In this document: one piece after another, positions 5,284-60,001 of the stretch | Numbering within the stretch: the first letter of the stretch is position 1 | Layout: each line of letters begins with the position of its first letter | From: Candidatus Sumerlaeota bacterium | GTDB taxonomy: Bacteria > Sumerlaeota > Sumerlaeia > SLMS01 > JAHLLQ01 | Length of the DNA: 64,000 nt | NCBI GenBank assembly: GCA_030156535.1 | Contig: JASGMJ010000007.1 | Coordinates: forward strand, 62,001-126,000 | Direction: 5' to 3' | Program-made: the position numbers and the translations under genes | The notes under the pieces: model-generated | Told to the model about the DNA's origin: nothing | The model's input: the letters and a program-made list of their open reading frames with translations, nothing else | Databases searched by the model: none

Positions 5284-6446
5284 GAGGGAATGGGCTCCTT
5301 CCTGTCGATTTCCGAATCATTGATTTTGCGTGTCTTGCAATCAAGGGCTTCGAGCAGAATTGTACGCATGGAGTCTGCGATTTCCTCCCACGTCCGGGAC
5401 TGGGGTGGCTTGCGGGCGGGACCTGTTCCGGCGGCCAGTGCCTGCTCGCAGGCGGCGATGAAGGCGGCGGGGTCGGCAGCGAGGAGCACTTCCCGGTCGT
5501 AGTCGGCCTGGACGTCGGGGATGGGCGTCGAGACGACGGGACGCCCGGCGGCGAGGTACTCCGGGGTCTTGGTGGGGCTCATCATTTTCGTCAGCTCGGT
5601 CAGCCGCCAGGGAATCAGGGCGGCGTCGAAGGCACGCAGGTACTCCGGCAGGTCGTCGTAACTTTTCGCGCCCAAGTGGTGGAAATTCGGCGCCGTCAGG
5701 GGGGGACGCTCCATGCCGATAAGGGGGCCGAGAAAGACGATGGACCATTGGGGACGCTGGCGGCAGACGGCTTCGATCAGGGGCCAGTCGATGCGTTCGT
5801 CAACGGCGCCGAAATAGCCGAGGATGGGGCGGGGAAGCGCGGCGATGTCGGCGGGCACGCCGCCGGGCTCGGCGCCGCGGGCGAAATGGGCGAAGTCGAT
5901 GCCGCTGGGGAAGCAGTGGAGGCGAGGATGAGTGCCTTCGCGCTGGCGCTGGAGGCTGCGGCCGCCGGTGAAGAGCACGTCGGCGCGCTGCACCACGCGG
6001 CGGTCCTTTTCCGGCACCCACGGCGCGGTTGCCTGGAAGGAGGAGAATGGGTCCATGCAGTCGAAGACGAGCAGATCGTGGGGGAGCCAGTCGGCAGCTT
6101 CCAGGTAGTCGGGGTTCTGGAACCAGAGGACGCGGCGGCCCGGAGGAGCGGCGCGGAGAAAGGGGCGGGCGGCGCGGCACGCGAGACGGATGGAGAGACG
6201 ATTCGAGAAGGCCGAGCGGCCGGAGAGGGGCATGTAGGGGATGTTGCGCGCTTCGGCGGCGGGGCCGAAGGATATGCGGCGCTCGTCCGGGGGGAGGCGG
6301 CGCCATTTGCGCGCGCTCATCCGGGCAACGTAGAGCACCGAATCTCCCCCGGCGGCGAAGCGGGTCATGAGCTGCTGGGGTCGCTGGAAGAGGCGCCGCT
6401 CCCAGGCGAGGTTGGAGAGACACACGATGTGAAGGGGAAGAGTCAT
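5280..6446 (-). CDS. Glycosyltransferase (GT-B type)
   Basis: HIVCLSNLAWERRLFQRPQQLMTRFA; GYFGAVDERIDWPLIEAVCRQRPQWSIVFLGP; MMSPTKTPEYLAAGRPVVSTPIPDV. Start MTLPLHIV at 6446. Confidence 0.85.
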   Translation of the reverse strand: MTLPLHIVCLSNLAWERRLFQRPQQLMTRFAAGGDSVLYVARMSARKWRRLPPDERRISFGPAAEARNIPYMPLSGRSAFSNRLSIRLACRAARPFLRAAPPGRRVLWFQNPDYLEAADWLPHDLLVFDCMDPFSSFQATAPWVPEKDRRVVQRADVLFTGGRSLQRQREGTHPRLHCFPSGIDFAHFARGAEPGGVPADIAALPRPILGYFGAVDERIDWPLIEAVCRQRPQWSIVFLGPLIGMERPPLTAPNFHHLGAKSYDDLPEYLRAFDAALIPWRLTELTKMMSPTKTPEYLAAGRPVVSTPIPDVQADYDREVLLAADPAAFIAACEQALAAGTGPARKPPQSRTWEEIADSMRTILLEALDCKTRKINDSEIDRKEPIPS

Positions 6447-6555
6447 TGTTTTGAGAGGGGAGGGCTGCGTGGCGCTTGACGTGCCGGGATACGAAGACGA
6501 GAAGTTATCCTTGGTGTGGGGAGTCTGGGAGCAGCGGCGAGGAGCGGCAAGGCGG

Positions 6556-8502
6556 ATGAGCAAGAAGCGCCCAATCAGTTCGCAGTTCAGGCTGCCGGCG
6601 GATCTGCCGCCGAACCCAAACGAGTCGTTCAATCCGGGCAAGTCCACGGTGCTGGGATTGCTGTGGGACAGCACGGACCGCATTACCCCTGTGGAGTCGG
6701 AAAGCGAGTCCGGCGTCGTCCGGCTCTCGCGCATCATCGAGCCCGATCCCGATCAGGCGCCCACGACGTTCGTCGATGGCACCGAGACGGTGGGGTACGA
6801 GTTTCTGAAACACGTGGGCGAAGGGGGCTTTGGCGAAGTCTGGGAGGTGGTGCAACGCTCGCTGGGGCGGCGCATCGCGATCAAGCGGCTGCGCAAGGAA
6901 CTGCTTCAGGACGTGAACGCCAAGTCCTACGTGGCCCGCCATCTGGTTTCCTCCTTCCGCCAGGAGGCACTGACGACCGGGGCTCTTGAGCACCCCAACA
7001 TCGTGCCCGTGTACGACCTCGGCGTTGATGACGAGGGGAACCCGCTGATGGCCATGAAAATGGTGCGGGGGCGGAAGTGGGACGATGTGATCGAGCAGGA
7101 TTTCCACCTGCCGGCGGGCGAGTTTCTGGCCCGTCACCTGCCCATTCTGATCGACGTGGCCCAGGCCGTGGCGTTCGCGCATTCGCGGGGAGTGGTGCAC
7201 CGCGACGTGAAGCCAACACAGGTGATGCTGGGAGAGTTCGGCGAAGTGCTGCTGATGGACTGGGGGCTGGCGCTGGTCTTCGATCCGGGAAAGGCAGAAT
7301 TGCAGGGGCCGCAGTTGGCACTCTCGGAGTTCACGCCCTGGAGCCCGCGCGTGACCAATCCCGCAGGAACACCGTCGTACATGGCGCCCGAGCAAACGGA
7401 AGAGGCGGCCGTGGAAATCGGCTCGTGGACGGACGTGTATTTGTTGGGCGGATGCCTGTACTATTTGCTGACGGGTTACGCGCCGCACGAGGAGGAGACC
7501 TCGGAGGCGTCGTTCCGCAAGGCCGTCGAGGGCGTGGTGGTGCCACCGTCCAAACGTGCACCGGACCGCTTGGTGCCGGAGGATCTGGAGGCGCTGTGCA
7601 TGCGGGCTCTGGCGGCCGACCGGCAGGACCGGCCAACCGCGCTGGAGTTCATCGACGCGCTGAGCGATTACCTGACGGGCGCGGGCAGAAAGCGCGAGGC
7701 AGCGGCGCTCTTCGAGGCGGCAAGCAGGCAGGCAAAGGAAGTTTGGGCGGAGTTCGCCGACTACGATGAAATGGGCGACGTGGCGAACATGCTGGAGCGC
7801 GCCCTGCTCCTGGACCCGGACAACAAGAAGGCCAGCGAACTGCGCCAGCAGGTGCTGCTGAATTTTGCGCGGACGGCCATCGGCAATTCCGACCTGCGTC
7901 TGGCGCGTTTTCACGCCGAACGCCTCCGCGCCGGAGAGGAACGGAACAAGATTCTGCGGGAGATCGCGCTCCTGCAGGATCAGCACAAGCGCGCGCAAAA
8001 GAGCCTGGAACATTTGTACGCACGCGCGGCCGAAGAACGCAACGCGGCGGTGCAGGCACGCGGAGAAGCGGAGGCACTGATCGCCAGCATCATGCAACGC
8101 ATGATCGAATCCTTTGGCACTCCGGACCACGCCCCGCTGATCAAGCCGATGGCACGCGAGATCCTCAAGCTGCTCGAACGCAACACGGAACGCCATCCCA
8201 CGCGCGATTCGCTGAAGAGCCGGATTACGTGCTACCGCACGGCTGCGGAGGCCTTGCAGGCTGTGGGAGCGCTGGATGAGGCCCTTCAAGCCTACCGGCT
8301 CGCGGAGATTCACCTGAAGACCTACCTGAAGCAGGAGCCCACGGACGAAGCCTTCGGGGCGAACCTGACGCAGGTGCGCGAGCGAATCCGACTGGTAAAC
8401 AGAGCCACGTCGGAGACGGTGAATGCGCAACGCGTGGTGAACGATTTCGAGTCCGCGCGCAAGAACCTGATGAAACGGATCGATGAAATGATCGAGGGGT
8501 AA
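6556..8502 (+). CDS. Hanks-type Ser/Thr protein kinase with C-terminal TPR/coiled-coil region (DWG variant)
   Basis: VGEGGFGEVWE, IAIKRL, HRDVKPTQVMLGEFGEVLLMDWG, APEQ, DVYLLGG; TPR-like tail. Start MSKKRPISSQ. Confidence 0.9.
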   Translation: MSKKRPISSQFRLPADLPPNPNESFNPGKSTVLGLLWDSTDRITPVESESESGVVRLSRIIEPDPDQAPTTFVDGTETVGYEFLKHVGEGGFGEVWEVVQRSLGRRIAIKRLRKELLQDVNAKSYVARHLVSSFRQEALTTGALEHPNIVPVYDLGVDDEGNPLMAMKMVRGRKWDDVIEQDFHLPAGEFLARHLPILIDVAQAVAFAHSRGVVHRDVKPTQVMLGEFGEVLLMDWGLALVFDPGKAELQGPQLALSEFTPWSPRVTNPAGTPSYMAPEQTEEAAVEIGSWTDVYLLGGCLYYLLTGYAPHEEETSEASFRKAVEGVVVPPSKRAPDRLVPEDLEALCMRALAADRQDRPTALEFIDALSDYLTGAGRKREAAALFEAASRQAKEVWAEFADYDEMGDVANMLERALLLDPDNKKASELRQQVLLNFARTAIGNSDLRLARFHAERLRAGEERNKILREIALLQDQHKRAQKSLEHLYARAAEERNAAVQARGEAEALIASIMQRMIESFGTPDHAPLIKPMAREILKLLERNTERHPTRDSLKSRITCYRTAAEALQAVGALDEALQAYRLAEIHLKTYLKQEPTDEAFGANLTQVRERIRLVNRATSETVNAQRVVNDFESARKNLMKRIDEMIEG

Positions 8503-8629
8503 AGTCGCTTGGAACGCTTGTGGCTTCTGCATGAAGCGGCGAGCGCCTGGAAGCCAACCTTCTATTGCCATCCGCACGCCGGACGGCGTCATTGACGGGG
8601 TTGCCCCCAGAGGCATTTGCGAGGTTCCC

Positions 8630-9775
8630 ATGACGTTTTCCTTCCCGATTTCCGATCCACGCCTCTCCCCCATCGCGGAGAAAGTCCACGCGGGCGAGCG
8701 CCTGAATTTCGAGGAGGGACTTGCGCTGTACGAGACGCCGGATTTTCTGGCGCTCGGGGCGCTGGCCAATGCCGTGCGCGAACGCCTGCACGGCGACAAG
8801 ACGTACTACAACATCAACCTGCACATCAATCCGACGAATGCGTGCTTTGCCTCGTGCCGTTTCTGCGCCTTCGGACGCAAGGCGTTCGACGAAAAGTCGT
8901 ACATTCTGAAACCCGAAGAAATCGTGGAACGTGCACGCAGGAGCCTGCCGGAAGGAGCGTCGGAAATCCACCTGGTCGGCGGAATCGATCCACGGCTGAA
9001 GATTGATTTCTACTGCAGCTACATTCGCGCACTGAAGGACGCCTTCCCGCACGTTCACATCAAGACACTGACGCCGGTGGAAGTGGTGTTCATCGCCAAG
9101 ATGTCGAAGCTGACGGTGCGCGAGGTGATCGAGCGCCTGCGGGAAGCAGGAATGGATTCGATGCCAGGTGGCGGCGCGGAGATTTTCGCCGACGAGGTCC
9201 GCGAGCAGATTTGCGAGCACAAGTGCGACGCGGCCCAGTGGTTTGAGACGCACCGCGAAATGCACCGTCTGGGAATGAAGACGAATTGCACGATGTTGAT
9301 CGGCCACGTCGAGGAAGCCCGCCACCGGGTGGACCACCTGATCCGGCTGAGGACGCATCAGGATGAGTGGGGAGCACGCGGCGAGGACGGCAGCTTGCTG
9401 GCAGGTTTCCAGTGCTTCATTCCTCTGTCGTTTCATCCGAAGCACACGGCGATGAGCCACTTGCCCGGGCCAACGGGGTTCGACGAACTGCGCAACATGG
9501 CGGTCTGCCGGCTGATGCTCGACAACATCCCGCATGTGAAGGCCTATTGGATCATGCTGGGAGTGAAGCAGGCACAGGTGGCCCAGTGGTTTGGCGCCAA
9601 TGACATCGACGGTACCGTGGTCCACGAAGAGATTTATCACGACGCAGGAGCTTCGACGCCGCTGGGAATGACGGTGGCGGAGATCGAACGGTTGGTGCGC
9701 GACTGCGGACGAACACCGGTGCTGCGCGATTCGCTGTACCGCGAAATCGCATCCCCGGCAGCGCAGAGCTGTTGA
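8630..9775 (+). CDS. mqnE: Aminofutalosine synthase MqnE (radical SAM, futalosine menaquinone pathway)
   Basis: NLHINPTNACFASCRFCAF (CxxxCxxC) and SMPGGGAEIFADEVREQIC. Confidence 0.85.
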   Translation: MTFSFPISDPRLSPIAEKVHAGERLNFEEGLALYETPDFLALGALANAVRERLHGDKTYYNINLHINPTNACFASCRFCAFGRKAFDEKSYILKPEEIVERARRSLPEGASEIHLVGGIDPRLKIDFYCSYIRALKDAFPHVHIKTLTPVEVVFIAKMSKLTVREVIERLREAGMDSMPGGGAEIFADEVREQICEHKCDAAQWFETHREMHRLGMKTNCTMLIGHVEEARHRVDHLIRLRTHQDEWGARGEDGSLLAGFQCFIPLSFHPKHTAMSHLPGPTGFDELRNMAVCRLMLDNIPHVKAYWIMLGVKQAQVAQWFGANDIDGTVVHEEIYHDAGASTPLGMTVAEIERLVRDCGRTPVLRDSLYREIASPAAQSC

Positions 9776-9778
9776 GCT

Positions 9779-11773
9779 TTACTGGCGAGGCAACATGGGG
9801 CGCGGACGTCCCTGCGGTCCGGTGCCCCCCGGAGCTCCCTGCGGTCCCGTGGGGCCACGAGTACCCTGCGGCAATGGTGGCTCGAAGGCGGCGGCTTCGA
9901 TTGTCCATTCGTCCCCTGACTTGACCATTTTCAGGCGAAGCGCGTTTTCGCTTTCAAAGAGGCCGCGCTCGCGTGCATCGGGAGAGGTCTCCCCCTTGGG
10001 GACTCCGGAAATCAGGATGGTGAAAACGGCGATCGCGTGATCTTCCCAGATCACGGACTGATTGGCCATGGGAAGGTGCATTTCCAATCGCTCATAGCGC
10101 TCCCCCAGATTGGCCCGCATGCGATTGAACACCTGAATCATGCGGGCGCGATCTGCATCGGCGAGTGCGGCCAGAAGCGCCGGAGGCACAAGCCCCTCTT
10201 CCTGCGCCGAGGGGTCTTCGACCAGGGCGCGGACGACGGCCTTGATTTCCCCTTTGAGCACCTCGTGCAGCTCTCCGCCCGGGAGGGGGGGATTCCGCTG
10301 GTAGTTCCACTCCGCCTCATTGAGCCACTGCTTCGACGTTGGCTCTGCCCCACCTTGAGTCAAAAGGCCGCCGCCGAGCGGCTGGGCCACTTCGGTATTG
10401 GGGGCGTTGGCGGAGGCCGAGCTGTCGACGCCACCTCCGTTGCTTTTCGGTGTCACGCCCGCATCGCTCTCCGACGACGTCGACGCCATGGCAGAAGCCG
10501 GGGAGGGCGTCGATTTGCTGATGGCATAGAACCCGAGAGCGGCCGCCAGGCAGAGGGCGACGACAACAATGCCGCCAAAGACGAACATACCGTATGACTG
10601 CCGATGAGTGCCCACGGCGGTCGCGTGCGGAGGCAACGTCGGATAACTGCCGAGTGAGCCACCCGTTCCGGGGTTGCTGTCCTGTATGGTAGGCGAACTG
10701 TGGAGCGATGAATGAAGCGTGGTGGGCGCACGGAACGGATTTGCCTGTGACTCCGCAGGTGCGGCCGCCATCGCGGCTGCTTTGCCAGCAGTGCCGATAT
10801 GGGAAGTGGGAGCCAGGTTCTCACTGTACGCGGCGGCACGCTTGAAGGATGGCCCTTCCCCCGCGTAAAGATCGGCAAGGGTGACTTGCTCGATGGGGGC
10901 AATCGCCTCGGATATTTTTGCCATCAGCGCCGTGGCGGAGGCGGGGCGCTCTGCGGGGTCTTTCGCAAGAGCGGGAGCCAACGCATTCCACGCGGCAGGC
11001 GGAATGTGGCGATTGCGCTGGGGCATGGGGACCGGGGGGTCCTTGATCTGGCAGACGAGAACGTCGGACTTGGCCTTGGCGTCGAACGCGAATTTGTTGG
11101 TGAGCAGGCGGTAGAGCATCATGCCGAAGGCATAGACATCGGCGGCGGGGGTGATCGTGCCACCGCGAACCTGCTCGGGCGCCATAAAGGCGGGCGTGCC
11201 GACGATCGAGTCGTCCTGGGTGGCAAAGACATCGTCCATGTCGACGCGGGCGATGCCGAAGTCCATGATCTTGGGAATGCCCTTGGGAAGGGTAACCACG
11301 ATGTTCGAAGGCTTGATGTCGCGATGGACGATGCCCATTTCGTGGGCGGCGTCGAGTCCACGCGCGGCAGCCACCAGAAGGTCCACCAATGCACGAACGG
11401 TCATGGTGGTCTTCTCGATACGAACGTAGTCGTCGAGGTTGGGGCCTTCGACGAACTCCATAACGATGAAGCTGGGAATCGCCGGATCGCGCGAGATGAA
11501 AACGTCGTGGGTCTGGACGACGTTCTCGTGGACGACCTTGGCCATGGTGAGGGCTTCGCGCTCGAAGCGCCCCATGAACCCACTGTTTCCGAGGAGATGC
11601 GGCTTGGGGACCTTGAGGGCAACGGTGCGGCGCAGACGAATCTGGGTGGCGCGGAAGACGGCCCCCATCGCCCCCTGTCCCAGGAGATCGTGAACCTCGT
11701 AGCGGTCGTCGATGATGCGACCAATCAGCGAACTGAGTTGAAACGAGGGGGCGGATTCGTTATTGAATTCCAT
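9779..11773 (-). CDS. Receptor-like Ser/Thr protein kinase (kinase, TM helix, ectodomain, collagen-like tail)
   Basis: LGQGAMGAVFRA, VALKVPKP, HRDIKPSNIVVT, IMDFGIA, APEQV; TM YGMFVFGGIVVVALCLAAALGFYAI; C-terminal GTRGPTGPQGAPGGTGPQGRP. Confidence 0.92.
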   Translation of the reverse strand: MEFNNESAPSFQLSSLIGRIIDDRYEVHDLLGQGAMGAVFRATQIRLRRTVALKVPKPHLLGNSGFMGRFEREALTMAKVVHENVVQTHDVFISRDPAIPSFIVMEFVEGPNLDDYVRIEKTTMTVRALVDLLVAAARGLDAAHEMGIVHRDIKPSNIVVTLPKGIPKIMDFGIARVDMDDVFATQDDSIVGTPAFMAPEQVRGGTITPAADVYAFGMMLYRLLTNKFAFDAKAKSDVLVCQIKDPPVPMPQRNRHIPPAAWNALAPALAKDPAERPASATALMAKISEAIAPIEQVTLADLYAGEGPSFKRAAAYSENLAPTSHIGTAGKAAAMAAAPAESQANPFRAPTTLHSSLHSSPTIQDSNPGTGGSLGSYPTLPPHATAVGTHRQSYGMFVFGGIVVVALCLAAALGFYAISKSTPSPASAMASTSSESDAGVTPKSNGGGVDSSASANAPNTEVAQPLGGGLLTQGGAEPTSKQWLNEAEWNYQRNPPLPGGELHEVLKGEIKAVVRALVEDPSAQEEGLVPPALLAALADADRARMIQVFNRMRANLGERYERLEMHLPMANQSVIWEDHAIAVFTILISGVPKGETSPDARERGLFESENALRLKMVKSGDEWTIEAAAFEPPLPQGTRGPTGPQGAPGGTGPQGRPRPMLPRQ

Positions 11774-11859
11774 TGCCGATCAGCCTGAGGAATACCCGAG
11801 ATGGAGATGCGACGCTCTCTTATCGGTAAGGAGTCTGGAAAACCTTGGCGTGAAAGGCA

Positions 11860-11935: not shown

Positions 11936-12307
11936 TCAGTCGGCTTCGGCCCAGGGAATCGGGTTGAACAGGGTCATGGCCTTGGGGCGTTCGACCTTGG
12001 AGACGTCGGTGACAACGCCATTCTCGCAGGTGATGACGAGATCGTAACCCTCGTAGACGCCGTACAGAACGTAGTAGCGGTTGTCGCGGATTTTGTAGAT
12101 GTAGACCTGCTTGTTTTCGACGTAGCCCGCAAATTCCGGAGCTCCGTAGCGTTTGAGAACTTCGGTCTCCTCAAGTCCCTTGGACGGTTGGAGTTCAAAC
12201 TGAACCGAGTTATCGTAAATGCCGATGCATCCCGCGAGGGGGAGCGCCGCAACGAACAGGGCTCCCGCCAGAAAGCGGGACAGATGGCGGGTGGGGCGAT
12301 GCTTCAT
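11936..12307 (-). CDS. Small lipoprotein
   Basis: MKHRPTRHLSRFLAGALFVAALPLAGC lipobox signal; ATGA overlap with the upstream kinase stop. Confidence 0.75.
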   Translation of the reverse strand: MKHRPTRHLSRFLAGALFVAALPLAGCIGIYDNSVQFELQPSKGLEETEVLKRYGAPEFAGYVENKQVYIYKIRDNRYYVLYGVYEGYDLVITCENGVVTDVSKVERPKAMTLFNPIPWAEAD

Positions 12308-14283
12308 GGTTCGATCTCCTCTGTGAGTCGCTGGATCTCTGGCCAGCGAATACGCATATCGACGAGTTCCCACTCTTCGTCCTTGAGCACAAGCCACATT
12401 TCAACCACGTCGTCACCGCGAAGGAGGCCGGCAACCTCGCGGGTGCGGCGGCTCCGGGTGGGGCGTCCCGTCACGGAGATGTCGAAGACGGCGTAGGCGT
12501 GGCTGACCCAGTAGTGGGATTTGTCGTGCTGGATGTTGAGAGTCAACGCGACCTGGGTGTACGGCCCGGCCGAGGCACGCTGGATGAAGCTGGCGAGCCT
12601 GCGGGCGTCGTCATTGCCGAGCGCGACCAGGGCATTCTCTTCGGGGTCGAACTGGCCGCGCGTCGTGGGAATTTCAATTTTCTCGTCGGCGAACTGGCCA
12701 ATCATGTTGCGGTAGCGAAGCTGAAGCGATTCCGGGGTGTCGGGCGGGTTGCGGTCGGCGTTCCAGCGGGAATCGTCGCGGGCGGGAACGGGCGTGGGAG
12801 TCGGGGCCACTGTGGGCGTGGGTTCCGCCGGAGGGGCCACGGCTTCGATTGCCTGCTCGATGCGGTCGATGATGGGGGCGGGAGTCGGCTCGGGCGTGGG
12901 AACGGGCGTCGGGACGGGGGTCGGGGGGACGCTGGTGGGCGCGGCTACGGGCGTTGGGGCGGGCGTTGGAACGGGGGTGCGGCGAACCTGCGGAACAGGC
13001 GTCGGAGTCGGCTCGGGCTCGGGAGTTGGCTGCGGAACGGGAGTGGCCGTGGCGACGGCAACGACGTTGCCGGGAGGGGGCTGTGGCGGTTCCGGTTCGG
13101 CACGCAGCCTGTTGACAACCATGACGGCCGCCACGGCGAAGAGAAGAAGGCAGACGGCGGCGACGAGTCCACCGATCAGAAAGTACAGGGCGGGTTTGCG
13201 ATCAGCGGACGGCACCAAAGGGGGCGCGGCAGGCTCGCTGGCGGGAGCGGGTTCGCTGGCTGGAGCGGGCTCGCTGGTGGGAGCGGGCTGCTGGACGGTG
13301 GCGGCGTCGCGGTCAAGCGGCGTGGCTTCGAGCTTGGTGCCGGTTACGCCGGAGAAGAGTTCCGCGAAGGCGCGCTGACTGATGGGTTCGAGTGCCTTCT
13401 CGACTCCTTCAATGAAGAGCGCGGCACTGGGAGGGCGATCGGCGGGCTCCTTTGCCAGAGCGGGCTTCAGGGCTTCCCAGAGTTTTGGGGGAATACCGTG
13501 ATTGCGTTCGTGAATGGGAATGGGTTCTTCCTGAACGTGGGCGTACAGGAGGGCGGTCTGCGTGTCGGCGTTGAAGGGAAGCTGGCGCGTGAGGAGGCGG
13601 TAGATCATCATGCCGAAGGCGTAGATGTCGGCCGCCGGGGTGACAGTGAGGCCCTTGACCTGTTCGGGCGCCATGTAGGCGGGCGTGCCGATGACGGCGG
13701 CTTCCTGGGTGGCGAAGGCGTTCTCCATCTGGATGCGGGCAATGCCGAAGTCCATGATTTTGGGAACGCGATGGGGCAGGGTGACGACGATGTTGCTGGG
13801 TTTGATGTCGCGATGAACGACGCCTCGGGCGTGGGCGGCGTCGAGGCCGCGGGCGATCTGGGCGAAGATGTCGACGAGGGCGGCGACGGTGAGGCTGTGT
13901 TCCTGGGTGCGGAGGAACTTTTCAAGCTCGGCGCCCTCGATGTACTCCATGACGATGAAGCTGGGAACGGCGGGGTCGTCGGAAACACAGACGTCGAAAA
14001 TCTGGACGATGTTCTCGTGAACGAGCTTTGCCATGGTGAGCGCTTCACGTTCGAAGCGCCCCATGAACTCCTCGTTGCCGAGCAGGTGGGGCTTGGGAAC
14101 CTTGAGGGCGACGGTGCGGCGCAGACGAATCTGGCGGGCACGGAAGACGGCGCCCATGGCGCCTTCGCCGAGCAGTTCCTCGACGGCATAGCGTTCGTCG
14201 AGCACCTGGCCCGTCAGGGATTCAATGCGAAAGGGATCGGGGTTCGAAGGCGAACTGCCGATCTCGGTGTCGTCACGGGACAT
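12304..14283 (-). CDS. Receptor-like Ser/Thr protein kinase, paralogue of 9779..11773
   Basis: LLGEGAMGAVFRARQIRLRRTVALKVPKP, HRDIKPSNIVVT, IMDFGIA; TM helix; long Pro/Thr-rich linker; SnoaL/NTF2-like C-terminus. Start MSRDDTEIGSS at 14283. Confidence 0.92.
   Translation of the reverse strand: MSRDDTEIGSSPSNPDPFRIESLTGQVLDERYAVEELLGEGAMGAVFRARQIRLRRTVALKVPKPHLLGNEEFMGRFEREALTMAKLVHENIVQIFDVCVSDDPAVPSFIVMEYIEGAELEKFLRTQEHSLTVAALVDIFAQIARGLDAAHARGVVHRDIKPSNIVVTLPHRVPKIMDFGIARIQMENAFATQEAAVIGTPAYMAPEQVKGLTVTPAADIYAFGMMIYRLLTRQLPFNADTQTALLYAHVQEEPIPIHERNHGIPPKLWEALKPALAKEPADRPPSAALFIEGVEKALEPISQRAFAELFSGVTGTKLEATPLDRDAATVQQPAPTSEPAPASEPAPASEPAAPPLVPSADRKPALYFLIGGLVAAVCLLLFAVAAVMVVNRLRAEPEPPQPPPGNVVAVATATPVPQPTPEPEPTPTPVPQVRRTPVPTPAPTPVAAPTSVPPTPVPTPVPTPEPTPAPIIDRIEQAIEAVAPPAEPTPTVAPTPTPVPARDDSRWNADRNPPDTPESLQLRYRNMIGQFADEKIEIPTTRGQFDPEENALVALGNDDARRLASFIQRASAGPYTQVALTLNIQHDKSHYWVSHAYAVFDISVTGRPTRSRRTREVAGLLRGDDVVEMWLVLKDEEWELVDMRIRWPEIQRLTEEIEP
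13232..13285. repeat. Three tandem 18-bp repeats encoding (PAPASE)-type units
   Basis: GGCTCGCTGGCGGGAGCG / GGTTCGCTGGCTGGAGCG / GGCTCGCTGGTGGGAGCG. Confidence 0.85.
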
Positions 14284-14630
14284 CAGGGCTTCTCCGGGCG
14301 AAGGGGGACGGTGCTCCCCAGCATCGTTTGTTAGGGGGGCACAGGAGAAAGCAGCGCGCAAATGGGATATTGGGGCAGAGTTTTCAGTTCTCGGTTTTCA
14401 GTCCAATGCAGCTCCCGTTCGCCCTGTTTTTCCAGTTTCGCTTTCGGTTCCGACTCCCCCATCCCGACAGGGACGGCAGTTGGAGAGCCAAGCACCGTCC
14501 CGAAGGGCGGTGCCGGGTACCCGGGGACGTTCTCAAAGCTCTTACAGGCAATTCGTTCAGTCGTCCCTGACGGGACTCTTTGCGGTTTGCTCTCCGCGAA
14601 AGAATGCCCGTTCATTTTCGAACCACGGCC

Positions 14631-20505: not shown

Positions 20506-22185
20506 ATGGCAGGACTGGACTCTCTCCAGCACATCGGGCCGTTTCAGGTTCTGGAGTGTCTGGGGTTCAACGGGGCGGCGGCAACGTACAAGGCCATGAA
20601 CACGGCCGGGCGCAAGGGCGCCTGCGTGGTGGCGCTGGACGCCACCGAGGTTGCCAGCATGGACGCCTTCCGGGCCGTGCAGTCGGAGTTCACGGTGCTG
20701 CGCGGTTCCGCGGGCCAACGGGTGCTGCGCCCGTTGGAGTGCGGCGAGGGCGACGGATTCTACTGGGCGGCCTACGATTTTCTGACGGGCCGGCATATCG
20801 GCAACACGGTGCAGGAGATCGGTCTGCCCCCGGTGGGGAGTTCATTCGCCGTGGCCGCGCAGGTGGTCGAGGCGCTCGTCGAGATGCAGCAGATGGGGCT
20901 CGCGTACCACGGGCTGATCACACCGGCGTCGATTTTCCTGACGGAAACCCAGCAGATTCGCCTGCTGCACGCGGGCTGGTCGCGGATTCTGCTCGGGGTG
21001 CATGGGGCCGTGGCGCACCCGTGCTTCATGAGCAACCTGCCGTTTGTGGCGCCCGAGCTTGCGGAAGGGAAAGAGGGCGAAATCGCGACGGACGTGTTCT
21101 CTCTCGGCGCGAATCTGTTTTTCCTTCTCTGCGGACAACCGGTCCACTGGGCGGACGATCCGAACGAGTTGGCGGAGATGATGGCCTCGCGCCCGGTGGA
21201 CTTGGCGCCGTTGCAGGACCTCATCGGTGGGGAAGGATTGGAACTGCTGGAGGAGATGCTGGAGCTGGACCCGATGGACCGGCCGGTGAATCTGGAAGCG
21301 CTGCACCAGCGGCTCGACGCCCTGGCGGCCGAGCTGCCGTCGCTGCCGATCGATCCCGGCCCTTCCTCAGTGACGATCCAGAAAATCATGTCGGGGAGCG
21401 GGCACGACGAGAGCAACCCGTCGACGGAAATCGAGCAGAGAGCACTTGGGGGCCCGGGGTCGTTCCAGCCTGAACCGATTCCATCGAGCACCGGCTTTGT
21501 GCCTCCTCCCCCCCCGCCGCCTCCGCAAAAGGCAAACGCAGCCCCGCCGCCGCATCAGGCCGTCAAGGACATACCCGAGCCTCCGGCTCCCGAATCCGCG
21601 GCGCAGACGGGGTCCACCGGCTCCACGCCTTCGGGCCCGGCGGGAATCCCGGAAGAATACCGCAAATCCGTGGAAAGTTCAGGCGCCAGCCCTGGCAAGC
21701 TCGTGCTGATTGCCGTGGCAGTGCTCCTCCTGCTCGGCGGCATTGGCACGGCGATGTATTTCGTGCTGGATGCCTTTGTGTTCAGCAAGGCGGCGGACGT
21801 GGCAGCCACGACGCCCAAACCGGATGGAAAGCCCCCTGCTGCGGCCGAAACTCCTGGAGACGGGAAGACCGAAACTCCCGCTTCGGGAGGCAAGACGGCC
21901 TCGACCGTACCGGCGGCGAATCGCTATGAAGTGACAGCCGAACGGCTGGAGGAACTTGCCAAGTTCCACCGCAAGTACATCGCCGAGTTTGGCATCTGGC
22001 CGCTGAAGCTCGATCAGTTGAAGGAACTGGGCGCGGAGGACGACGTGCTGAAGGACGCCTGGGACAGAGACTTCGATCTGCGCAGCGAGTTCATCATCAG
22101 CCGTGGGGCGGACAACAAGTGGGACACCCCCGACGACATCTGGTTCGACGCCAAAGAACTCGAGCTTGGCGGAAAAACGCGCTAG
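20506..22185 (+). CDS. Pseudokinase-TM-pseudopilin-like fusion protein
   Basis: Kinase-fold N-lobe and C-lobe without catalytic motifs (VVALDA for the beta3 Lys; YHGLITPASIFL for HRDxKPxN; HAGWSRIL for DFG). APE and DVFSLG kept. Pro-rich linker; TM KLVLIAVAVLLLLGGIGTAMYFVL; C-terminus IISRGADNKWDTPDDIWF. Confidence 0.8.
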   Translation: MAGLDSLQHIGPFQVLECLGFNGAAATYKAMNTAGRKGACVVALDATEVASMDAFRAVQSEFTVLRGSAGQRVLRPLECGEGDGFYWAAYDFLTGRHIGNTVQEIGLPPVGSSFAVAAQVVEALVEMQQMGLAYHGLITPASIFLTETQQIRLLHAGWSRILLGVHGAVAHPCFMSNLPFVAPELAEGKEGEIATDVFSLGANLFFLLCGQPVHWADDPNELAEMMASRPVDLAPLQDLIGGEGLELLEEMLELDPMDRPVNLEALHQRLDALAAELPSLPIDPGPSSVTIQKIMSGSGHDESNPSTEIEQRALGGPGSFQPEPIPSSTGFVPPPPPPPPQKANAAPPPHQAVKDIPEPPAPESAAQTGSTGSTPSGPAGIPEEYRKSVESSGASPGKLVLIAVAVLLLLGGIGTAMYFVLDAFVFSKAADVAATTPKPDGKPPAAAETPGDGKTETPASGGKTASTVPAANRYEVTAERLEELAKFHRKYIAEFGIWPLKLDQLKELGAEDDVLKDAWDRDFDLRSEFIISRGADNKWDTPDDIWFDAKELELGGKTR

Positions 22186-24206: not shown

Positions 24207-24977
24207 GTGATTCAAAGCTGCCGTTTCGAGTACAAATTCCTGATTCCCGAGTTCACCGCCCGCCGTATCGCCAGTGAGCTGCGGCCGTTCATGCGTTTGG
24301 ATTCGTGGCTGAAGGGTACCGGCAAGACGTCCTACATCGTGTCCTCGGTGTATCTGGACAGCCCGCGCCTGCATTGCTATGAGGCGGTGGACCAGGGGGC
24401 GAGAAACCGGTTCAAGCTGCGAATGCGCTGGTACGGGAAGGAACTGGCCGATCCCGTTTTTCTGGAAGAGAAGCGTCGGACAGGCGAAGGGATCCGCAAG
24501 ATACGGATTCCCGTGGAGAGGACGGGGGCACTGGCGCTGCTGGAGGGCTGCACGCTTTCGAGTTCGCTGCTGCTTGGCGGGAGTGGCAGCAAGAGGGCCT
24601 CGGGCGAGTTGCTGATGCAGAGAATCCGGTCGTTGGGCGCGATCCCTTCGTGCATTGTTTGCTACGACCGCGAAGCCTGGGAGTCGCCCGTGGAGAAGGG
24701 GCTGCGTGTGACGTTCGACCGCGATCTGGTGGCGTCCACGGTGAGGACAACGGTGCACGACGGCACGCCGGCGTCGATTCCGCGCGGACAAACGATTCTG
24801 GAGATCAAGTTCCAGGATCGGGTTCCCGAGTGGCTGAGTTCTCTGGTGCGGCGCTACAATCTGGCACGCTGCTCGGTTCCGAAGTATGTGATGTGCGTGG
24901 ATGCGCTGCGATCGGTGGGCCATGGGGTGCCAATGCTGCCCGCGCGTCTGCCCGGGATGGGGAGGACAGTATCTTGA
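24207..24977 (+). CDS. VTC-domain polyphosphate polymerase-like protein
   Basis: CRFEYKFLIP, SSVYLDSPRLHCYE, RFKLRMRWYG, FLEEKRR, CYDREAW, LEIKFQDRVPEWL, RCSVPKYVMC. Confidence 0.85.
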   Translation: MIQSCRFEYKFLIPEFTARRIASELRPFMRLDSWLKGTGKTSYIVSSVYLDSPRLHCYEAVDQGARNRFKLRMRWYGKELADPVFLEEKRRTGEGIRKIRIPVERTGALALLEGCTLSSSLLLGGSGSKRASGELLMQRIRSLGAIPSCIVCYDREAWESPVEKGLRVTFDRDLVASTVRTTVHDGTPASIPRGQTILEIKFQDRVPEWLSSLVRRYNLARCSVPKYVMCVDALRSVGHGVPMLPARLPGMGRTVS

Positions 24978-25663
24978 ACGAGATCCAACGCGTTCTTCTG
25001 ACGTTCAACGCACAGGTGGAGCCGTCGTCTCCGGCGATGATGATGCTCGCGTTGTTGGCCGCGTTCATCGCCGGCCAGATTGTGGCATGGACGTACATGT
25101 GGTCGCACAGCGGTGTTTCGTACAGCCGCGCCTACGTGCAATCACTGGTGCTGGTGGCCATTGTCGTGGCGCTGGTGATGATTATCGTGGGAACGAACGT
25201 GTTCGTGGCGTTCGGGCTTTTTGGTGCGTTCGCGATCATTCGATTCCGCAACGTGCTGAAGGACACGCGGGACACGGCCTTCATTTTCATGGAACTGGCG
25301 GTGGGACTTGCGTCGGGGACGTGGAACTTTGGCGCGCTGATCGTGGGCACGCTGGCGTTTCTTCTCGTGTGCCTGTATTTGTCGGTGACGCGGTTCGGCT
25401 CGCTGGATGTGACGGACGTGCTGGTCTCGCTGCGTGCGCCGGAGGAACTGCGCGCTGAGATCGAGAAGGTGCTGCACATTCACTGCCAGAAGGCCCGGCT
25501 GATTTCGCGTCACGCGGAGAGTGCGTCGGCGGAAGCGCATTGGTCGTGGCGCGCGTTGTTGCGCGACCCTGACCGCTCGCAGGAATTCATGTCCGCCCTG
25601 CGTGCGCTGGAGCGAGTGGATGACGTTTCGATTCATTACAGCGGCGACGAGATGGAGGTGTAG
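24974..25663 (+). CDS. DUF4956-like membrane protein
   Basis: Several TM helices, GLFGAFAIIRFRNVLKDTRDTAFIFMELAVGLASG, directly after the VTC gene. TTG start overlapping the VTC stop. Confidence 0.8.
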   Translation: MNEIQRVLLTFNAQVEPSSPAMMMLALLAAFIAGQIVAWTYMWSHSGVSYSRAYVQSLVLVAIVVALVMIIVGTNVFVAFGLFGAFAIIRFRNVLKDTRDTAFIFMELAVGLASGTWNFGALIVGTLAFLLVCLYLSVTRFGSLDVTDVLVSLRAPEELRAEIEKVLHIHCQKARLISRHAESASAEAHWSWRALLRDPDRSQEFMSALRALERVDDVSIHYSGDEMEV

Positions 25664-25665
25664 GC

Positions 25666-26814
25666 ATGGGGGGAGGCGTTCAGCGAATCCCAATGAAGCC
25701 GCGCCGCCGATTGCAGCACCTGATGGCGGGATTGGGGCCGTTGTTGGCGTGGATTGCGGCGGCGGCAATCATGGGGTTTCTCCTGACAAGGAGAAACGAC
25801 ACCGTCACCGTGCGCGGAGTGACGGAGGAGCAGCGCGCTGTGATTGCTCCGGCGGTGTCGGGGCGCCTGCTCAGCATGGGAGCGGCGTATCTCGACCCCG
25901 TCGCGCAAGGCGACGTGATCGCGGTGCTCGACGATTCCGCGGTACGGAGCGAGTTGGCAGTGATCCGCGCCGAAGCGGTGCTGGCAAAGGCGAACTTCGA
26001 CGCCGAAATGGAGAAGCTGGAACGGGAGAAGTCGGAGGCCGCACGCTCGGAACTGATCGAGTTCCGCCGCCTGGCCCTCGACATCAATCAGGCACAGTTG
26101 GATGTGCTGGACCGGCAGGTGGAGCTGGCGACGACACGCGTGGACTTGCAGCGGCTCATGGTGCTGAAGGGGCGGCTGACCGATTTGAACCTGCTGGGAG
26201 CGCTGTCGCTGGCCGAGTTGGAAGAAGTGAGTTTTGAGGTCGCGGAGGCCGAAGAATTTCTCCGGAAAGCGGAACGCGTGCTCGACGAGTCGCGCGCCCA
26301 GCTGGAGGAATCGCGTGATCGACTGGAGGACTTCAAGGCGGCCGCGGCGATGGCGGAGCCGGACGAGGCGAGGCTGCTGGCGGCACTCAATGCCGAAGTC
26401 GGCGTGATCGAAGCACGTTTGCGCAGCATGGAGACAACACTGACGAGCCTGGTGCTGCGCAGTCCGCTTGATGGGCGTCTGGTAGCGACGTACGCGCACG
26501 CGGGGGCCGAGGTGATGGAGGGGCTTCCGATCGCCGAGGTCGCGGCGGTGGAGACGGACATGCTGGTCGCGTGGCTGCCCCAGGAGACGACGTTGCTCCC
26601 GCGAGAGGGGGATACGGCGGAGGTGTTCGTGACGGGGGGCCAGAGCAAGCCGATGGCGGGCGACGTCCGCCGAGTCGCGGGAGCCGTTCTGCCCATGCCG
26701 TTGCGCCTGCTGCGCAATCCGCAGGTTCCCGAGTACGGTGTCCCGGTGCAGATCGAATTGCGCGACGGCGTTCTGCCGACGGGTCAAACGGTTCGCGTGA
26801 CGTTTCGCCGCTGA
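25666..26814 (+). CDS. HlyD-family membrane-fusion / periplasmic adaptor-like protein
   Basis: N-terminal TM; APAVSGRLLSMGAAYLDPVAQGDVIAVLDD; long coiled-coil hairpin; LVLRSPLDGRLVATYAHAGAEVMEG. Confidence 0.82.
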   Translation: MGGGVQRIPMKPRRRLQHLMAGLGPLLAWIAAAAIMGFLLTRRNDTVTVRGVTEEQRAVIAPAVSGRLLSMGAAYLDPVAQGDVIAVLDDSAVRSELAVIRAEAVLAKANFDAEMEKLEREKSEAARSELIEFRRLALDINQAQLDVLDRQVELATTRVDLQRLMVLKGRLTDLNLLGALSLAELEEVSFEVAEAEEFLRKAERVLDESRAQLEESRDRLEDFKAAAAMAEPDEARLLAALNAEVGVIEARLRSMETTLTSLVLRSPLDGRLVATYAHAGAEVMEGLPIAEVAAVETDMLVAWLPQETTLLPREGDTAEVFVTGGQSKPMAGDVRRVAGAVLPMPLRLLRNPQVPEYGVPVQIELRDGVLPTGQTVRVTFRR

Positions 26815-57780: not shown

Positions 57781-58233
57781 ATGAACTGCCCATTTTGCGG
57801 TACCAGCGACACGCGGGTTGTAAACTCGCGTCCTTCGCCCGCCGGCGATTTTGTGCGGCGGCGGCGCGAATGTCAGGCGTGCTCGCGCCGCTTCACGACG
57901 GCCGAGTACGTCGAAAAAGTGGAGATGATGGTGGTCAAGCGCGACGGCATGAGGGAGCCGTTTCAGCTGCAAAAGGTGCGATCGGGGCTGGAAAGGGCGT
58001 GCGAGAAACGCCCGGTCTCGCCGGAACAGATTGACCGGATGACGCGGGAAGTGGAGCGGGAGGTTCTGACCACGGCAGACCGTGAAGTGACAACGGAGCA
58101 CGTGGGCAAGATTATCCTGCGCGAAATCAAGAAAGTTGACCACGTGGCCTACGTGCGATTTGCGTCGGTGTACAAGCAGTTCCACGACTTGCAGGATTTC
58201 AACACAGAGATCCAGTCGCTGCTGAAAGAATGA
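57781..58233 (+). CDS. nrdR: Transcriptional repressor NrdR
   Basis: MNCPFCGTSDTRVVNSR...RRRRECQACSRRFTTAEYVE zinc ribbon plus ATP-cone. Confidence 0.95.
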   Translation: MNCPFCGTSDTRVVNSRPSPAGDFVRRRRECQACSRRFTTAEYVEKVEMMVVKRDGMREPFQLQKVRSGLERACEKRPVSPEQIDRMTREVEREVLTTADREVTTEHVGKIILREIKKVDHVAYVRFASVYKQFHDLQDFNTEIQSLLKE

Positions 58234-58242
58234 CACCAAGCG

Positions 58243-58276
58243 GGCTGGCCACCGATCCAGAAAACAATGGCCAGCC
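58243..58276. repeat. Perfect 9-bp inverted repeat between nrdR and the kinase gene
   Basis: GGCTGGCCA / TGGCCAGCC; followed by GTCAATCTTTCG, weakly terminator-like. Confidence 0.5.
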
Positions 58277-58345
58277 GTCAATCTTTCGTGCTTCCCTTTT
58301 CCACCTTACGTTCCCGATTCTCAGGCAAAGGCGAGTTGGGCCCTT

Positions 58346-60001
58346 ATGGCGCTGAGTCCTGAAGAAATGTCGAACATGCTGTCGCGGATGATGCCGGAGC
58401 AGCTTCCGGAGGATCCGGAGGAGTCGCTCCGTCCTGCGAAACCGCTGGGGCTGAGCCTGCCTGCGCACCCGGACCAGCGTGTTTCACGAGCTGCCACGAA
58501 ACTGACGGTCTTCAGTGTTGAAAAGGAAAGGGAGCAGGAGAGCCGCAGCACGGATGCGGCGCCGTTGCCCCCCGGTCCTGCGGGCTATGGCCTGTTGACG
58601 CTCGTCGGGGAAGGCGGATTCGGCGAAGTCTGGGAGGCGATCCAGATGTCGCTGGGCCGGATCGTGGCCGTGAAACGCATGAGCGACCGGCTCGTGAAAG
58701 ACATGGAGGACGATCCCGAGGAACTGAAGACTCTGGAGGACGACTTCCAGAGGGAGGCGCTGACGACGGCGCTGCTGGAACATCCGAATATCGTCCCCGT
58801 CCACGACCTTGGTCTCGACGAAGAAGGGCGTCCGCTGCTCGCAATGAAGATGGTGCGTGGCAAGCGCTGGGATGATTTGCTCTACAACGACCTGGTGAAG
58901 CTGACGCCCGACGAGGTGCTCGCCCGCCATCTGCCGATTCTGATCGACGTGGCGCAGGCCGTGGCCTTTGCCCATGCACGCGGCATCGTGCACCGCGACA
59001 TCAAGCCGTCGCAGGTGATGGTCGGGGAATTCGGTGAAACGCTGCTGATGGACTGGGGCATCGCGGTGCTCTACAACCCGGACCTGCTCGACGATGACTG
59101 CAAGCAGCTGGCGGACGAAATCGCTCCGACACCCGCAAAAGCGTTCAACCCCACGGGCACGCCAGCGTACATGGCGCCGGAACAGACGACGAAGACGGCG
59201 CTGCAAATCGGGCCGTGGACGGACATCTATCTGCTCGGGGGGATTCTGTACTATCTGCTGACGGGGCGTTCGCCACACTCGGCCGGCACGTCGGCAGAGT
59301 CGTTCGCCCTCGCCGCCAAGGGCATTGTCCATCCACCCGAGGAAGTGGCGGGCGGGCGCGAGATCCCAAGGGAGTTGGCGGCCATTGCCCTGAAGGCGAT
59401 GGCCAAAAGGCCATCGGACCGCCATGGCACTGTGAAGAGTTTCATCGCGGATCTGGAAAACTACATGACCGGAGCGGGAAACCGGCAGAAGTCAATGAAG
59501 GTGACGCAGGAAGTGGCGGCAAAGGTGGCAAAGGGATTCTCCAGCTACCAGGAGTTGACGGAGAGCCACAACCTGCTGATTCAGGCGGTGAGCCTGTGGC
59601 CGCAGAATCCGATGGCGCCGCCGCTGCAAGTGAAAGTGCGGACGACTTACGCGCAAATGGCCCTGCGCAATGGCGACTTGGTGCTGGCACGCCTGATGGC
59701 CGAGGGAATCGAGGTGCCGGAAGCCAAGGCTCCCCTGATGGGGGAGATCGTCTCGCGCGAACGGCGCAAGAGATGGGCAGCCAAGCAGCGCCGGATTCTC
59801 TATGCCGTGGCGCTGGTGCTCGTAATCTTGATTATGTTCGACGTGATTTTCCTGGTGCTGTGGCAGAAGAGCGAGGGGATGGGGGCGATGAAAACGCGGG
59901 TGCAGATGGCCGAGCAGCGCGCGAAGACACTGGAGATTGAGGTGCGCAAACTGAAGGAAGCACTCAGCGAAACGGCAGCGGAGGATCACGGCGCAAAGTG
60001 A
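58346..60001 (+). CDS. Hanks-type Ser/Thr protein kinase with C-terminal TM helix (DWG variant)
   Basis: LVGEGGFGEVWEAIQMSLGRIVAVKRM; HRDIKPSQVMVGEFGETLLMDWGIA; APEQ; TM RRILYAVALVLVILIMFDVIFLVLW. Paralogue of 6556..8502. Confidence 0.9.
   Translation: MALSPEEMSNMLSRMMPEQLPEDPEESLRPAKPLGLSLPAHPDQRVSRAATKLTVFSVEKEREQESRSTDAAPLPPGPAGYGLLTLVGEGGFGEVWEAIQMSLGRIVAVKRMSDRLVKDMEDDPEELKTLEDDFQREALTTALLEHPNIVPVHDLGLDEEGRPLLAMKMVRGKRWDDLLYNDLVKLTPDEVLARHLPILIDVAQAVAFAHARGIVHRDIKPSQVMVGEFGETLLMDWGIAVLYNPDLLDDDCKQLADEIAPTPAKAFNPTGTPAYMAPEQTTKTALQIGPWTDIYLLGGILYYLLTGRSPHSAGTSAESFALAAKGIVHPPEEVAGGREIPRELAAIALKAMAKRPSDRHGTVKSFIADLENYMTGAGNRQKSMKVTQEVAAKVAKGFSSYQELTESHNLLIQAVSLWPQNPMAPPLQVKVRTTYAQMALRNGDLVLARLMAEGIEVPEAKAPLMGEIVSRERRKRWAAKQRRILYAVALVLVILIMFDVIFLVLWQKSEGMGAMKTRVQMAEQRAKTLEIEVRKLKEALSETAAEDHGAK

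Follow-up and report, generated by a model that had tools for sequence, protein, structure and literature searches.

Pseudopilins are known as filament subunits, and in the assembly of type IV filaments a prepilin signal and a continuous helix are needed for processing and polymerisation. The major pseudopilin GspG (PF08334; 3G20, 3GN9, 4LW9) resembles the protein described here in the fold of the head, in the DxWG turn, in the ligands of its S-x-G-x-D...DD loop and in its topology, with the N-terminus inside and the head outside. In 3G20 the calcium ligands are the main chain of P114 and V119 and the side chains of D117, T122 and D125, within PGPDGVPNTEDD (PMC3396595). The PASTA receptor kinases PknB, PrkC and Stk1 have, in the same way, a kinase fold inside the cell, one transmembrane (TM) helix and a small ectodomain; EssB/YukC of type VIIb secretion is likewise a pseudokinase that spans the membrane, with its active site degraded and one segment outside the cytoplasm; and the pseudokinase domain of MviN (ActPs3, M. 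tuberculosis) is also membrane-bound, with all motifs degraded and a bulky Trp in the pocket region. Bacterial pseudokinases are little studied. In a review of their families (PMC12599244) pilins, GspG and Sumerlaeota are absent and no family has a pilin head, and the main text of two kinase surveys (PMC2877116, PMC11032199) leaves pilins unmentioned. No earlier account of kinase receptors with a GspG head was found in the open-access literature.

We analysed a window of 64,000 nucleotides (the whole stretch of DNA presented here), located on a 152-kb contig of a Candidatus Sumerlaeota assembly of 4.3 Mb that is 94% complete. The original prediction had read one of its genes (Table 1) as a kinase fold joined through a TM helix to a pilin-like C-terminal domain. 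This fusion is real, as the AlphaFold2 domains, the Foldseek relatives and the genomes compared all agree, and every motif quoted in that prediction was correct in both position and letters. Orthologues are present in all 12 genomes of the Sumerlaeota order, spread over two families, those of G004, G006 and G009 being cut by contig ends; all the relatives compared are metagenome-assembled genomes (MAGs). Since every genome of the order carries the gene, we ruled out a chance ORF or a MAG error. The named close relatives are Candidatus Sumerlaeota/Sumerlaeia MAGs, and close relatives were restricted to Sumerlaeota records in a scan of 85,462 species with one peptide pattern. The AlphaFold2 models, made on nine orthologues, were confident at residues 1-280 and 470-555, the parts for which such a check had been proposed, and the anatomy of kinase fold, TM helix and GspG-like head is well supported.

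Table 1. Features of the pseudokinase gene, in positions of the window
Feature	Position	Strand	Evidence or remark
Whole gene: receptor-type pseudokinase, single-pass, with GspG-like head, 559 aa	20506..22185	+	ORF with ATG as start codon; orthologues in 12/12 genomes of the order
Pseudokinase domain, residues about 8-275	20527..21330	+	Pfam Pkinase at residues 14-268 (E 5.7e-14); pLDDT mostly 77-97; Foldseek PknB/PknA
Beta3 strand VVALDA (residues 41-46), ATP-binding Lys missing	20626..20643	+	
Degenerate catalytic loop YHGLITPASIFL (residues 134-145)	20905..20940	+	His135 and Pro140 kept
Degenerate DFG segment LLHAGW (residues 153-158)	20962..20979	+	Invariant His155 stands in place of the metal-binding Asp; Trp158 is likewise invariant
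C-lobe scaffold motifs still present: LPFVAPE (Glu184), DVFSLG (Asp196)	21037..21108	+	Invariant in the A3 alignment
Arg259, partner of the retained C-lobe motifs	21280-21282	+	Invariant
Pro/Ser-rich disordered linker, cytoplasmic side, residues 282-396	21349..21693	+	pLDDT below 50
TM helix, residues 398-426, N-terminus inside	21697..21783	+	Hydropathy and K/R flank; model helix 396-425
Disordered extracytoplasmic linker, residues 427-467	21784..21912	+	pLDDT below 50
GspG-like head, made up of helix 470-495, a pair of short helices and four strands	21913..22173	+	hhalign; Foldseek; pLDDT 91
Predicted calcium loop RGADNKWDTPDD, residues 533-544	22102..22137	+	Equivalent to PGPDGVPNTEDD of EHEC GspG (3G20)

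The best solved relatives of the kinase domain in Foldseek were PknB/PknA/Stk1 (E 1e-15 to 6e-17, TM-score 0.77-0.82 of target). Measured against a catalytic Hanks-type Ser/Thr kinase, the domain has the fold and lacks the beta3 Lys, the HRD Asp and the DFG Asp; as expected of a bacterial pseudokinase, it combines a kinase fold with the loss of all three catalytic motifs, conserved over 12 genomes. The predicted absence of the ATP-binding and catalytic residues holds for the window protein and for the aligned orthologues alike. Precisely, the HRD Asp is replaced by L/A/I/C/M in nine of nine aligned orthologues, all of which keep the HRD His, the Asn of PxN is changed to Ser (Ser142 in the window protein) in 9/9, in the same nine His takes the place of the DFG Asp and Trp directly follows the DFG position, and the beta3 Lys is absent in each of the eight that cover beta3. 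The residues that keep the fold, the Glu184 of APE, the Asp196 of alphaF and Arg259, are invariant among the aligned orthologues (in the window protein APE lies at 182-184, DVFSLG at 196-201 and DRP at 258-260). We also looked for intact K/HRD/DFG residues in homologues of the N-lobe, and the orthologues were without them. Hence the dead active site is itself conserved. To judge from the sequence, the N-terminal domain has lost the residues for ATP-Mg binding and phosphate transfer and kept the Hanks-type fold and, because catalysis was lost while new residues became fixed, this pattern speaks for a retained non-catalytic role rather than for decay.

A single TM helix was confirmed where it had been predicted, and the proposed orientation, with the kinase inside and the head outside, draws support from the K/R-rich stretch that precedes the helix in nine of the ten pseudokinase orthologues considered. 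The original prediction was also right that a prepilin signal of the GFTLIE type is missing: none occurs anywhere in the window protein, and no prepilin leader G/A-F-T-L-x-E was found in the pseudokinases, in the receptor kinases with the same head (hereafter head-kinases) or in the kinase-less head proteins. The continuous helix that packs in a pseudopilus is missing too, since a disordered linker lies between the TM helix and the head. By analogy with type IV filaments, the window protein should be neither processed nor polymerised.

For the head, we compared alignments with a GspG profile built from GspG sequences of the same phylum; by hhalign the pseudokinase heads matched it with a probability of 94.1% (E 1.3e-7), the other heads with 97.5% (6.8e-12) and all heads together with 97.2% (4e-11), while ten column-shuffled controls reached at most 1.6%. 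The alignment spans 70-81 columns and takes in the helix and the DxWG turn. An HMM of the pseudokinase heads matched three places (G007:C14:129026, G009:C126:765 and G011:C497:16908) that are GspG by PF08334, and an HMM of the kinase heads (A5) matched GspG proteins, identified in the same way, at 3.4e-11 to 1.9e-10. When the model of the head was run through Foldseek, ranks 1-4 were GspG structures (3g20, 3gn9, 4lw9 and 3g20_B), with TM-scores of 0.62-0.65, probabilities of 0.69-0.87 and weak E-values of 0.35-0.43. In the Pfam search of the window protein the head got no name. Pfam T2SSG was reached by only 3/13 family heads (best E 0.0047), the head-kinase L150 obtained 19.8 bits against a PF08334 cut-off of 21, searches of Pfam/NCBIfam with single heads gave no useful name, and the head alignment, run as a profile against the PDB, returned chance coiled-coil matches only (F-BAR proteins, E at least 0.14). 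Because this single-sequence Pfam evidence is weak, the relation to GspG rests on profile-profile comparison and on fold. Both bear out the GspG likeness claimed for the C-terminal region (hhalign 94-97%, Foldseek ranks 1-4); we checked whether a T2SSG/pilin match might be missing, and both the GspG profile and the fold do match. The C-terminal domain is thus genuinely related to the soluble head domain of GspG.

At the positions of the GspG side chains D117/T122/D125 the window protein has D/T/D. The three positions hold D/N, T/N/D and D/E in 12 pseudokinase heads, D, T/N/S and D in 14 kinase heads and D, T/S/D/N and D in six kinase-less head proteins, so that oxygen donors are found there in 32/32 heads. 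Thus, the head appears to keep the calcium site of GspG, and it is predicted to bind calcium.

A search for homologues with the same fusion had been proposed; we searched 39 genomes of the class with head alignments and read the ORFs. Besides the orthologues across the order, we obtained 21 receptor kinases in which HRD and DFG are intact and which have one TM helix and a GspG-like head; the beta3 Lys is present in all of them except L152, where the contig ends within the N-lobe. Kinase-less proteins with a TM helix and a GspG-like head were found as well (L160, L161, L164-L167). The fusion is therefore as real as originally proposed, but it is not unique to the pseudokinase, which represents a single branch within a family spread across the class. 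As regards the kinase-less proteins, one (L167 2243-3310, -; G000:C11) belongs to the genome of the window, and L164, L165 and L167 have in common a short TI[RK]EGLP-like motif just before the TM helix.

The genome that carries the pseudokinase also encodes a head-kinase with intact VAIK/HRD/DFG (L149 2171-4048, -; contig C22, G000:C22:61242-62714), which its sequence makes the obvious partner candidate for the window protein. A head-kinase was detectable in 10/12 pseudokinase-bearing genomes, as contig-cut pieces in G001 and G004, and was not found in the MAGs G005 and G008 (91% and 88% complete). The profile of the pseudokinase heads matches that of the other heads at 99.5% (E 1.4e-22). In the kinase tree the head-kinases form one clade (100/99), which also holds a protein of G019 and L023, whose contig ends before any head could appear, and the pseudokinases form a separate clade (100/100) on a long branch. 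Forcing pseudokinases and head-kinases together lowered the likelihood and was just not rejected (p-AU 0.052), and a joint clade of the pseudokinases with the G019 protein was not rejected either (p-AU 0.189), the placing of the pseudokinases in this tree being hampered by long branches. The G019 head protein (L043 4067-5794), from another family of the class, has the same architecture with a partly degenerate kinase that keeps VVIK and DFG with HGN for HRD, and may have become a pseudokinase by a second route of its own.

Outside the phylum the search for the fusion was a sample of 30 genomes with similar kinases, and no head-bearing kinase was found among the ORFs read. Head matches in these genomes lay either in short ORFs, the majority with a prepilin signal, or in long ones; the two long ORFs that were read carry no kinase, and four with weaker matches were left out. 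The GspG-like head is thus borne by a clade of receptor kinases found across the class, and the window protein is best read as the non-catalytic member of this receptor family; in most Sumerlaeota receptors with such a head the catalytic motifs of the kinase are intact, so that it looks active.

We also compared the gene neighbourhoods of the orthologues. Inside the family the neighbours are conserved, with a PMI-like gene upstream and an ABC-F-like gene downstream of the pseudokinase gene. Across the order no conserved neighbours were found, so a conserved operon was rejected and linkage gives no functional partner; the genes of the pseudokinase and of the head-kinase are unlinked. In G002 only, a kinase with intact motifs (L032 5304-6779, -) lies 26 bases downstream of the orthologue (6806-8878, -), and its C-terminus reads like a cyclic-nucleotide-binding domain. 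The window holds four more Hanks-type kinases, at 6433-8499 (+), 9782-11779 (-), 12307-14397 (-) and 58226-59998 (+), all without a GspG-like head and two of them with DWG for DFG. Three overlapping or adjacent ORFs at 24207-26814 (+), read by eye only, resemble a CYTH/VTC-type polyphosphate polymerase domain, a DUF4956-like membrane protein and a membrane-fusion protein.

The explanation that we prefer, and to which we give about an even chance, is a single-pass receptor pseudokinase with a GspG-derived calcium-site head, which would serve as a scaffold or as an allosteric partner, with the head-kinase of the same cell as its likeliest counterpart. The Hanks-fold domain, deprived of the residues for ATP-Mg binding and phosphotransfer, would lie in the cytoplasm, and the TM helix, set between disordered linkers, would display outside the membrane a head that has lost the parts of GspG for processing and polymerisation and kept its calcium site. 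Calcium would stabilise this head, which may sense or bind something outside, perhaps another head, and the signal could be passed through the TM helix to the pseudokinase; this would then act without catalysis on its partner. A scaffold or docking-surface role, also proposed originally, is what we infer for the kinase fold. In a fuller version, which we consider unlikely as a whole, a domesticated pseudopilin-head system would form head-matched complexes of a catalytic head-kinase and its dead sister, in which signalling would be gated by calcium and by an outside ligand, with the pseudokinase acting allosterically as ErbB3 does with ErbB2.

It is somewhat unlikely, in our judgement, that the protein is instead a stand-alone scaffold like EssB/YukC or MviN, recruiting cytoplasmic proteins, perhaps after phosphorylation of its linker by unrelated kinases, with no pairing to a head-kinase. 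The two MAGs in which no head-kinase was found and the length of the disordered linker fit such a scaffold, and both known bacterial transmembrane pseudokinases are scaffolds (PMC12599244), but the rare head common to pseudokinases and head-kinases suggests a common outside ligand or partner. A head derived from GspG, a pilin-like topology and the presence of GspG genes and a prepilin peptidase in this genome would also suit a receptor linked to secretion, whose head would mimic a pilin without polymerising and dock on the apparatus of type II secretion or of the type IV pilus, the protein reporting or regulating the state of this apparatus. This is quite improbable, because no secretion gene lies near any orthologue in the neighbourhood comparison, the helix for pseudopilus packing is not continuous with the TM helix, and a long supported branch separates GspG from the receptor heads.

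Some other pseudokinases turned out to be enzymes, and the fixed replacements His155, Ser142 and Trp158 mean that the site is under selection; an unusual catalysis retained by the kinase fold in spite of its lost motifs is nevertheless very improbable here, as the Lys, both Asp and the Asn of PxN are all lost, which goes beyond most known active pseudokinases. Least of all do we credit a C-terminal domain that merely converged on the PERCAL calcium-loop motif without kinship to pilins. This motif does occur in unrelated folds (PMC3396595) and the Pfam matches of single heads are poor, but the length of the profile alignment, which extends to the helix and the DxWG turn, and the first rank of GspG by fold led us to reject convergence of the calcium motif alone.

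Compared with GspG, the window protein is without the prepilin signal and the continuous polymerising helix 1, has a shorter loop from helix to sheet and carries a kinase-fold domain where GspG has its leader peptide. From the PASTA kinases it differs in the absence of catalytic residues and in its ectodomain, a GspG-like head where they have PASTA repeats; no such repeat was found in it by Pfam. EssB/YukC, with no family match in the Pfam search of the protein, has a different ectodomain, helical in EssB, and comes from a different phylum. MviN, again with no Pfam match, is a flippase with many TM helices, against a single one here, and with a carbohydrate-binding domain and no pilin-like head; speculatively, and by analogy, Trp158 may play a part like that of the pocket Trp of MviN. 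Closest are the head-kinases of Sumerlaeota such as L149, which have the same kinase fold, one TM helix and GspG-like head with a calcium loop; these keep VAIK, HRD and DFG and are conserved class-wide, whereas the pseudokinase occurs in one order. With a catalytic-looking and a dead version bearing matching heads in one genome, the role of bacterial pseudokinases as receptor partners becomes directly testable. The pseudopilin head, used here as a receptor ectodomain and having no ability to polymerise, shows a pilin domain co-opted for signalling. Receptor-type Hanks pseudokinases are a kind already known; a pilin-derived ectodomain on one of them is new.
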